Assembly: GCF_000337135.1 (NCBI RefSeq)
Contig: NZ_AOIN01000008.1
Location: 161,989 to 225,988, forward strand
Reading direction: 5' to 3'
Length of the DNA: 64,000 nt
Origin: Natrialba chahannaoensis JCM 10990
Lineage (GTDB): Archaea > Halobacteriota > Halobacteria > Halobacteriales > Natrialbaceae
Positions 6,209-58,029 of this stretch are shown piece after piece. Made by a program: the position numbers and the translations under genes. The notes beneath the pieces are model-generated. The model saw only the letters and a program-made list of their open reading frames with translations. It was not told the origin of the DNA and searched no databases. Each line of letters begins with the position of its first letter. Within the stretch, counting starts at the first letter, position 1.

Positions 6209-6281
6209 GTCCTGATAGGGTAGTGGACTATCCTCTTGGCTTGCGGAGCCAGGGACCGGAGTTCAAATCTCCGTCAGGACG
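6209..6281 (+). tRNA. tRNA-Arg (GCG)
   Basis: 73-nt tRNA. Acceptor GTCCTGA pairs with TCAGGAC, D-stem GGGT/ATCC, anticodon stem TTGGC/GCCAG with loop TTGCGGA giving anticodon GCG, and T-arm CGGAG-TTCAAAT-CTCCG. Discriminator G, no encoded CCA. Its last 23 bp recur exactly downstream at 6409-6431, and the last 13 bp recur at 6521-6533. Confidence 0.95.
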
Positions 6282-6536
6282 CTTTTCCGAACACAACAAC
6301 GACGAGCGGAGCGAGTCGTCCGTGTTCGGAAAACGGACCCGGAAGATTTGAGCAGACAAGTTGCAGCCCGGAACGGCGCTTTGCGCCGCACGCCCGGAAC
6401 ATCTTGGCGAGTTCAAATCTCCGTCAGGACGCTCACTTATCGCGGACGCTTCACATTGCTCAGTGCCTGCTCTTGTGTTCGGTCCTGATGTACCCAACGC
6501 TCGCTACCGCTCGCGTTGGACTCCGTCAGGACGCTT
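6282..6536 (+). repeat. array of tRNA-Arg 3'-end copies with hairpin spacers
   Basis: Two units follow tRNA-Arg. Unit 1 (150 bp) holds a nested hairpin, with outer arms TTTTCCGAACAC (6283-6294) and GTGTTCGGAAAA (6322-6333) and inner arms GACGA/TCGTC. It then has an inverted T-arm fragment GGAAGATTTGAGC (6341-6353), a CGGCGC-TTT-GCGCCG hairpin (6374-6388), and an exact 23-bp copy of the tRNA 3' end (6409-6431). Unit 2 (102 bp) ends with CTCCGTCAGGACG (6521-6533). It also contains GTCCTGA at 6482-6488, which can pair with TCAGGAC at 6526-6532 around a CCAACGC/GCGTTGG stem, rebuilding an acceptor-like helix. The layout parallels the tRNA-Asp arrays at 56.5-57.5 kb. Confidence 0.85.
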
Positions 6537-56118: not shown

Positions 56119-56442
56119 GTATTGGTCTGGTTGGGGTCAGTGATGTGCGTGTGCGCTATTGGGAGAGAAGCGGCTGTCACGAGATACTACAGCGAGGTAG
56201 CGGCGGCAGGCATTTAACGGTTACTAACTCGGCTCAGAAGCGTCGCTATCCGGCCGGGCGGACCTGACCGGTGTGAACGATCACGAGTGTGAGTAGCCGA
56301 TTCTCAGTTAAATCCCTTGTGGGTCGTGTCAATCACCACCACGATTTGGCAGAAGGAGGCAGGATTGTGTGGCGATTCCCCGTACCAAGGCAGTCCCGAT
56401 TGGAAAGCCTTAATACTCCGACCGGGAAAGGAAGCATTGCAA
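56119..56442. promoter_or_regulatory. divergent promoters of the RNA polymerase operon and tRNA-Asp
   Basis: No gene. The left half serves rpoH. At the right, CCTTAATACTCCGACC (from 56408) is the tRNA-Asp TATA element, about 30 bp upstream of the tRNA. The same block recurs in front of the second tRNA-Asp at 57209. Confidence 0.55.
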
Positions 56443-56515
56443 GCCCGGGTGGTGTAGTGGCCCATCATACGACCCTGTCACGGTCGTGACGCGGGTTCAA
56501 ATCCCGCCTCGGGCG
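56443..56515 (+). tRNA. tRNA-Asp (GTC), copy 1
   Basis: 73-nt tRNA. Acceptor GCCCGGG/CTCGGGC, anticodon stem CGACC/GGTCG with loop CTGTCAC giving anticodon GTC, T-arm GCGGG-TTCAAAT-CCCGC, discriminator G, no CCA. Identical to the second copy at 57244-57316. Its last 22 bp are repeated downstream. Confidence 0.97.
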
Positions 56516-56961
56516 TTTCTTCGATATCCAATCCGTGAGCGACCAGCGTAGCTGTGTCGCGAACAAACTACATCGAAGAACGACAGTACTGGGATTTGAA
56601 CCCTGCCAGTCGCGCACAGCGAACAACGTGAGCGAGCACGTCTGGCTCCGGTTCAAATCCCGCCTCGGGCGTTTTCTCGAACTCAACTCTCACGAGCAAT
56701 CAGCGTGCTGTGTTGCGAGTATCCTGTGTTCGAGAACACGGCAATAGGGATTTGAATCAGGGAGCAGCTTGCTGCGACCGTGGTTCAAATCCCGCCTCGG
56801 GCGCTTCTTCGATTTCTAATCCATGAGCGACCCGCGTAGCGGTGTCGCGAACACACTCAATCGAAGAGCGGCAGTACTAGGATTTGAACCCTGCCAGTCG
56901 TGCACAGCGAACAACGTGAGCGAGCACGTCTGGCTCCGGTTCAAATCCCGCCTCGAGTGCG
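56516..56961 (+). repeat. array of three tRNA-Asp 3'-end repeat units
   Basis: Three units of 156, 132 and about 158 bp follow tRNA-Asp, each ending in a copy of its 3' end (GGTTCAAATCCCGCCTCGGG plus CG): 56650-56671, 56782-56803, and a decayed one at 56938-56961 (CCTCGAGTG). Each begins with a nested hairpin, for example outer TTCTTCGAT/ATCGAAGAA (56517-56525, 56572-56580) and inner GCGAC-CAGC-GTA-GCTG-T-GTCGC (56539-56560). An inverted T-arm follows, GGGATTTGAACC (56591-56602), GGGATTTGAA (56747-56756) and GGATTTGAACC (56880-56890). Units 1 and 3 share one inner spacer, while unit 2 has another containing GCAGC-TT-GCTGC. Confidence 0.9.
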
Positions 56962-57243
56962 CTCTGTTGAGGACAATCGTGACTGGCCAGATGTGCTGTA
57001 GGATATTGCTGCGGCGATGAGTGGAGCAAGCCACACCCATCAGTTTGTCGATGTCCTGAACAGTAGAAGCAAGTCGTCCGTCACTCCACGCAGCGTGAAC
57101 GACAGGTACGACAACTGTATCCTGTGATTATAGCGCGTGTCCTCCGCAGTGGCACTCGAGTACGCCGAGTGGTCAATATTCCCACACACGGCGGAGGGAG
57201 AACAAAACCCTTAATACTCCGACCGGGAAAGAAGGCATTGCAA
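56962..57243. other. non-coding gap between the tRNA-Asp loci, with duplicated promoter
   Basis: No gene. From 57209, CCTTAATACTCCGACCGGGA and the following bases repeat the promoter of copy 1 almost exactly, so the duplication of tRNA-Asp included about 35 bp upstream. ACTCGAGT lies at 57154-57161. Confidence 0.55.
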
Positions 57244-57316
57244 GCCCGGGTGGTGTAGTGGCCCATCATACGACCCTGTCACGGTCGTGACGCGGGTTCA
57301 AATCCCGCCTCGGGCG
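57244..57316 (+). tRNA. tRNA-Asp (GTC), copy 2
   Basis: Identical in all 73 nt to copy 1, 801 bp upstream, with the same promoter block. Anticodon GTC. It is followed by its own, shorter array of 3'-end repeat units. Confidence 0.97.
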
Positions 57317-57510
57317 CTTCTTCGATTCCTAACTCGTGAGCGACCCGCATAGCGGTGTCGCGAGCATACTGTATCGAAGAACGGCACTAGGGATTTGAAT
57401 CAGGGAGCAGCTTGCTGTGACCGTGGTTCAAATCCCGCCTCGGGCGTTTCTTCGATATCCAATCCGTAAGCGACTCGCGTAGCGGTGTCGCCAACATCCT
57501 GCCTCGAAGA
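57317..57510 (+). repeat. tRNA-Asp 3'-end repeat array of copy 2
   Basis: One complete unit of 130 bp. Nested hairpin TTCTTCGAT/ATCGAAGAA (57318-57326, 57373-57381) with inner GCGAC-CCGC-ATA-GCGG-T-GTCGC, inverted T-arm GGGATTTGAA (57390-57399) and an exact 22-bp tRNA 3' end (57425-57446). The second half differs by one base from unit 2 of the first array. A further hairpin follows (TCTTCG/CGAAGA, 57449-57454 and 57505-57510; inner GCGAC-TCGC-GTA-GCGG-T-GTCGC) but no further tRNA end, so the last unit is cut short. Confidence 0.88.
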
Positions 57511-57600
57511 GTAAGAGGGTTCGAGTTCCTGTAGCGCGACGACCCCACAACACAGCCGAGAGTTCATATACAAAAACGAACTCAACACCGGCGAACTGCG

Positions 57601-58029
57601 ATGTCTGTGAGGACGAACACGAAACAAACCGGCGACGAAACCGAGTGCAAGATCATGTGCCGGCTACTCGAGAAGGGCTACACTGTCTCGCAGCCGTTCG
57701 GAGACAACGACAAGTATGACCTAATTCTCGATACCGGCACTGACCTGTTCCGGGTGCAGTGCAAAACCGGCTGGCAGGAGGACGACGGTGCTGTCCTCCG
57801 GTTCAAGACGGCGAGCAAGACGACGAGAAACGGAGAAGTGACCATCGTCGACTACGGTACCGCAGTCGACGCGTTCGCCGTTCGCTGCATCGACACAGAC
57901 ACGCTCTACTGGGTCCCAGCCGAGCAGGTCGGATCGAAGAGTACGTATCTCCGACTCGAGAAGCCCGAGATCGATCACCCCCACATCAAACTAGCGTCGG
58001 CGTTCCGGTTCGACACCGCGCTTCCGTGA
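57601..58029 (+). CDS. PD-(D/E)XK endonuclease, group I intron-associated type
   Basis: 142-residue protein of the small PD-(D/E)XK family found with group I introns and free-standing in archaea. The active-site pattern is E13 (GDETECKIM), D40 (GDNDKYDLIL) and Q53-x-K55 (LFRVQCKTG). A beta-rich C-terminus follows (EVTIVDYGTAVDAFAVRC, TLYWVPAEQVG). It is predicted to cut DNA, perhaps as a homing-type or repair enzyme. It begins about 90 bp behind the last tRNA-Asp hairpin, so it may be linked to that repeat system. No intron is visible near it. Confidence 0.82.
   Translation: MSVRTNTKQTGDETECKIMCRLLEKGYTVSQPFGDNDKYDLILDTGTDLFRVQCKTGWQEDDGAVLRFKTASKTTRNGEVTIVDYGTAVDAFAVRCIDTDTLYWVPAEQVGSKSTYLRLEKPEIDHPHIKLASAFRFDTALP

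Follow-up and report, generated by a model that had tools for sequence, protein, structure and literature searches.

The window analysed here is a stretch of 64,000 nucleotides from Natrialba chahannaoensis JCM 10990, whose RpoB'' is 99% identical to those of Natrialba hulunbeirensis and Natrialba sp. SSL1. It contains two identical tRNA-Asp(GTC) genes, each followed by short units that close with a copy of the tRNA 3′ end (Table 1), and the ORFs adjoining these arrays were identified by reading of the ORF list as RpoH-like, RpoB''-like and one other. A preliminary description of the locus had reported the two genes with units behind both, a 3′-end copy closing every unit, and two families distinguished by the second half of the unit, A (units 1 and 3) and B (units 2 and 4); the ARAGORN and Rfam calls and the sequence itself agree with it in these respects. 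Of the four unit lengths given there, 156, 132 and 130 bp are correct, while the third unit has 156 bp instead of about 158 bp. The one copy described as decayed is that of unit 3, which differs from tRNA-Asp by two to three mismatches.

Table 1. Coordinates of tRNA genes, units and unit parts in the window.
Feature	Position	Strand	Remarks
tRNA-Arg(GCG) gene	6209..6281	+	with own array
tRNA-Arg unit	6282..6431	+	150 bp; ends in exact tRNA-Arg 3′-end copy
Second, shorter unit type at tRNA-Arg	6432..6533	+	hairpin arm is inverted acceptor strand (TCCTGACG/CGTCAGGA)
tRNA-Asp(GTC) gene 1	56443..56515	+	ARAGORN, Rfam
Unit 1	56516..56671	+	family A, 156 bp; behind tRNA-Asp gene 1
Unit 1, H1	56517-56580	+	
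Unit 1, inverted T-arm	56591-56602	+	
Unit 1, apical stem	56603-56649	+	
Unit 1, tRNA 3′-end copy	56650-56671	+	
Unit 2	56672..56803	+	family B, 132 bp
Unit 2, H1b	56674-56736	+	
Unit 2, inverted T-arm	56747-56758	+	
Unit 2, 3′-end copy	56782-56803	+	
Unit 3	56804..56959	+	family A, 156 bp
Unit 3, decayed 3′-end copy	56938-56959	+	CCTCGAGTG
tRNA-Asp(GTC) gene 2	57244..57316/7	+	identical to gene 1; ARAGORN, Rfam
Unit 4	57317..57446	+	H1a and family B second half, 130 bp
Unit 4, inverted T-arm	57390-57401	+	
Unit 4, 3′-end copy	57425-57446	+	
Fifth, terminal H1 hairpin	57447..57511	+	after last 3′-end copy; no second half

Units are about 90-185 bp long, have no gene inside and follow the same order throughout, with a T-rich start, a first hairpin (H1), an inverted arm (iT), an apical stem and the direct copy of the tRNA 3′ end (dT). 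The second hairpin (H2) is long, and its lower arm is formed by the inverted T-loop and T-stem 3′ strand. Where the preliminary description spoke of an inverted and a direct T-arm, the inverted arm and the direct copy are both present, but the copy spans only from the T-loop (GTTCRAAT) to the tRNA 3′ end, and the T-stem 5′ strand is not copied in the aligned units. It can now be added that the inverted arm complements the T-loop and the T-stem 3′ strand and not the acceptor strand, for which no specific complementarity was found (3.74 of 7 with the own tRNA, 3.67 of 7 after permutation). On these values, a minihelix model in which the acceptor strand is paired inside the unit as well was rejected as unsupported. 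Since iT matches T-loop and T-stem but not the acceptor, H2 stands in the position of a T-arm and the duplicate acceptor strand is unpaired within the unit; having no partner there, it does not make the unit alone a tRNase Z minihelix. By inspection, the unit ends, which are the T-rich trailer and the acceptor strand, form no inverted repeat.

The inverted arm is complementary in at least 9 of 12 positions in 181 of 207 units, which belong to 30 tRNA types, compared with 56 of 1035 shuffles. The four bases opposite the T-stem form 2.84 of 4 pairs with the own tRNA and 2.36 with permuted ones, the maximum in 2000 permutations being 2.51; examples of such own-T-stem pairing are CTAC/GTAG and CCAC/GTGG at two Met tRNAs, CTCC/GGAG at Arg and CCGC/GCGG at Gln. 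In comparison with dinucleotide shuffles, units 2-4 of the tRNA-Asp arrays fold with z = -4.7 to -6.4, and unit 1 without its 3′ copy with z = -2.3.

The hairpins also change in a coordinated manner. The three compensating changes named in the preliminary description were all found in the sequence, and among 16 H1a homologues of the tRNA-Asp arrays 98.6% of the paired cells hold standard pairs; in 11 cells both partners have changed, and the covariation score is reached by none of 500 shuffles. Base pair 30:38 of H1a, for instance, occurs as A-U, G-C and C-G. One-sided changes in H1a that keep a standard pair are G-U, no A-C was seen, and four cells are otherwise unpaired or unspecified. Between related units, compensatory and non-compensatory double changes number 87:6 in H1 and 61:8 in the apical stem, while RNase P RNA, handled alike as a control, gave 79:5. 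One-sided changes to G-U or to A-C were counted at 15:6 in H1, 19:18 in iT:dT and 0:6 in the apical stem, compared with only 23:13 in RNase P RNA, a control that is itself weak. This asymmetry was dropped as proof of RNA versus DNA, since early runs showed no wobble preference and the RNase P control failed in the same way, and a stricter version gave mixed results; overall, the sense-strand wobble test of RNA selection is weak.

Units of this kind are not confined to tRNA-Asp. Going beyond the preliminary description, we found similar units in this genome at about 20 of 45 tRNA genes, each with at least one copy of its own 22-nt 3′ end 80-140 nt downstream; one of them is the tRNA-Arg(GCG) gene at 6209. 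Upstream of the tRNA genes, examined as a control, 3′-end copies were absent save for those of the neighbouring Asp array. The unit carries the 3′ end of its own tRNA at Ala, Arg, Asp, Gln, Glu, Gly, His, Leu, Lys, Met, Ser, Trp and Val, and at several tRNAs with no detected unit (Phe, Lys-TTT, Ile) remnants such as H1 alone are present. As a separate observation, at tRNA-Phe (G000:C8:141500-146000) two 3′-end copies flank a 1.48-kb segment with two ORFs, as if this were a cargo-bearing unit; on reading, these ORFs seem to end in SHOCT-like helices.

For a wider search we used the structural pattern GATTTGAA-N25-55-TTCAAATC, which is limited to units of the inverted-arm type whose T-loops have A57, and the reversed pattern as control. 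It matched in 261 of 292 Halobacteria genomes and 73 of 77 genera, with up to 17 matches per genome and none in the remaining 31 genomes, whereas the reversed pattern had 0 matches in all genomes. Among about 310 genomes outside Halobacteria, isolated single matches occurred in some, a small minority, and those listed mostly had no hairpin core. At the fetched loci, the own upstream tRNA 3′ end was matched directly at 95 of 105 pattern sites; the other 10 sites form 9 loci, at 4 of which a tRNA is also present. Recurrence in haloarchaeal genomes, for which the preliminary description had proposed a search, was found by this pattern scan at many loci throughout Halobacteria, and together with the roughly 20 tRNA genes within one genome these matches exclude a private tandem duplication. 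It is very likely that the units are a real, class-wide, structured and tRNA-specific family. No Rfam family matches them, the Rfam rtT model has no match at gathering score, nor at E<=5 in 56400-57650, and no description was found in open-access full-text literature on haloarchaeal tRNA tails, so that this element, with its tRNA-specific pairing at 3′ ends, seems to have gone undescribed although it is present in nearly 90% of the Halobacteria genomes sampled.

A search of phages matched no unit, the tRNA-tail structure was not found in viral contigs apart from different, perfect palindromes in GC-rich ones, and plasmids gave two weak matches only; on this basis a virus- or plasmid-borne cassette was rejected. 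The GC-rich viral contigs L270:1103, L285:2325, L299:8498 and L302:13876 carry near-perfect palindromes (GGATTTGAACCGTG..CACGGTTCAAATCC) that end in T-arm sequence and are possibly attP or terminator structures.

Comparison with close relatives, which had been proposed for single units, revealed unit-sized gains and losses, and these too speak against a private tandem duplication. With second-half families designated A, B, B', C and F in this analysis, the two tRNA-Asp arrays read A,B,A / B in the window and, within the same genus, C,B / A,B in G032, C,B' / A,C in G163, F / F in G604 and none / F in G231. Exactly at the tRNA-Arg 3′ end, G163 carries an additional 101-bp unit of the short type that is absent from the window, and the sequence that follows is the same. 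Few or no intact units are present at tRNA-Arg in three genomes of the same genus, G604, G186 and G231, which also have fewer at tRNA-Asp and contain decayed H1 remnants, and in Natrinema a single unit stands behind either one or the other tRNA-Asp copy. In arrays with at least two units, the copy nearest the tRNA is the better preserved one in 40 cases and the worse one in 5 (p about 2e-6). B-type cores are common to tRNA-Asp, Ser and Trp, and as core families recur at different tRNAs, a transfer of cores from one tRNA gene to another is probable.

The closest known system is that of the tyrT/rtT repeats of E. coli. Read with the same script, tyrTV of MG1655 contains three 178-bp units, each closing with the tRNA-Tyr 3′ end including CCA, and its 3′-end copies show 3 mismatches where the block used for comparison begins. 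In these units GGGGAAGGAT lies upstream and pairs with ATCCTTCCCC of each 3′-end copy, which gives an inverted arm of 10 bp. As far as sequence can tell, the tyrT repeats are of the haloarchaeal plan, in which an inverted copy would sequester the T-stem 3′ strand and the acceptor strand would keep a free end. To our knowledge, the inverted arm of the tyrT repeats has received no emphasis in the literature. In both systems (the E. coli one being 'rttR' in MG1655), a tRNA gene is immediately followed by tandem units that close with the tRNA 3′ end; ahead of every 3′-end copy the T-stem 3′ strand is repeated in inverted form, with hairpins in between. In contrast to rtT, the haloarchaeal units occur at many tRNA types and in a whole archaeal class with tRNA-specific arms, encode no CCA, do not match the Rfam rtT model and show no recognised tpr-like gene. 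An article citing Boesl and Kersten 1991 describes how rtT RNA is freed from the transcript of the tRNA operon and implicates it in responses to limiting amino acids (PMC4986893), and BIMEs include some enterobacterial rtT-like sequences (PMC2965389). By their common architecture, the haloarchaeal modules tie in with the little-explained rtT repeats.

Other known systems are less similar. Archaeal integrases favour tRNA 3′ ends, with the T-stem-loop among their targets (PMC8371274), and elements integrated there by tyrosine recombinases likewise leave a T-loop-to-3′-end duplicate behind an intact gene; the haloarchaeal units, however, are short, geneless, structured and arrayed, and no integrase was seen. 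SMR-A of Haloquadratum is a short (about 110 bp), transposase-free and hairpin-rich haloarchaeal repeat whose mobilisation is unknown, but unlike the tRNA-tail units it has terminal inverted repeats, no target duplication and IS605-type palindromes as targets (PMC3119063). CRISPR and integron arrays also join a polar repeat and a variable segment beside a fixed end, whereas here the repeat is a tRNA tail and the spacers are homologous hairpins; cas or integron genes were not recognised in the ORF list of the window.

The preliminary description had offered two interpretations, miniature integrative units or RNAs processed by tRNase Z, and both are partly supported. The leading reading, to which we give about an even chance, is that of a class-wide family of non-coding, rtT-like modules whose structure is selected in the tRNA transcript and which recombine at the repeated 3′ end. 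The structure would be under selection in a read-through transcript, as with E. coli rtT, and a tRNase Z cut at the real tRNA 3′ end would release the module RNA. By replacing the T-arm, H2 would keep the duplicate T-stem strand from the real tRNA and leave the duplicate acceptor strand free; modules would be gained and lost through recombination at the repeated 3′ end, presumably with entry on the tRNA side. One idea is that the distal copy could capture the acceptor 5′ strand (predicted 0.73-0.77), for which multiloop energy terms may be decisive. The pattern throughout Halobacteria, the pairing with the own T-stem, compensation like that of RNase P RNA, the whole-module differences among relatives, the better preservation of proximal copies and the rtT architecture argue for this transcript reading, and so does the fixed orientation for an RNA released by tRNase Z, against which stands the acceptor strand unpaired inside the unit. 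The fast turnover of modules between sister species is odd for a conserved function; further points against this reading are the tRNA genes with no modules, about half of the total, and the genomes with no match. Complementarity of the arms could also be kept by template-switch repair of quasi-palindromes without any selection on RNA.

RNA function and integration are not exclusive, as the former could account for the working of the units and the latter for their movement. Integration taken by itself is a possible but doubtful account, according to which a tyrosine recombinase or staggered-cut integrase of a haloarchaeal element acts at the tRNA T-loop on non-autonomous cassettes, each insertion leaving a T-loop-to-3′-end copy, so that cassettes pile up as in integrons or CRISPR arrays. 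The identity block from T-loop to tRNA 3′ end resembles archaeal att sites (PMC8371274), the freshest copies are tRNA-proximal, arrays of sister species are mosaic, the 101-bp module is precisely present or absent at tRNA-Arg, B-type cores are shared among tRNAs, and the 1.48-kb segment at tRNA-Phe lies between 3′-end copies. Nevertheless, no integrase was found beside the arrays where looked for, neither an autonomous relative nor a carrier among viruses and phages came to light, and the plasmid matches were the two weak ones; the tRNA-specific inverted arm and the compensatory hairpins are left unexplained, and the losses can also result from plain recombination between 22-bp repeats.

We regard as unlikely that the arrays are functionless local repeats, in which slippage or template switching at the palindromic T-arm makes direct and inverted 3′-end copies, which are then amplified and made uniform by recombination and gene conversion. 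That both kinds of copies derive from the local tRNA, that decay grows with distance from it and that turnover is rapid would fit such an origin, but one H1/H2 architecture with its core families across 30 tRNA types, compensation at the level of RNase P RNA and the apparent restriction to one class are contrary to it.

Rather improbable in our view is a dedicated tRNA-anchored cassette system, in which new hairpin cassettes would enter at the tRNA 3′ end and duplicate the T-loop-to-3′-end segment, and RNAs of the polar arrays would offer an alternative tRNA 3′ end (duplicate acceptor strand with H2 as T-arm) as a maturation switch that E. coli tyrT would have as well. Decoy attachment sites, whose surplus 3′ ends would draw integrating viruses away from the genuine one, would suit the common use of tRNA 3′ ends as archaeal att sites (PMC8371274) and the two-ORF segment inside the tRNA-Phe array, but are highly improbable, as the inverted arm and H1 would be needless.

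The modules provide a tractable system for studying the duplication and movement of tRNA tails and their possible use as regulatory RNAs. They also affect annotation: in the window, spurious ORFs at 56465-56686 (-) and 57400-57627 (-) (RRDLNP..., GFEPRSQQAAP) are translated units, and tRNA-tail units account for such 'RRDLNP'-like small ORFs, which are spurious and run antisense to tRNA genes.
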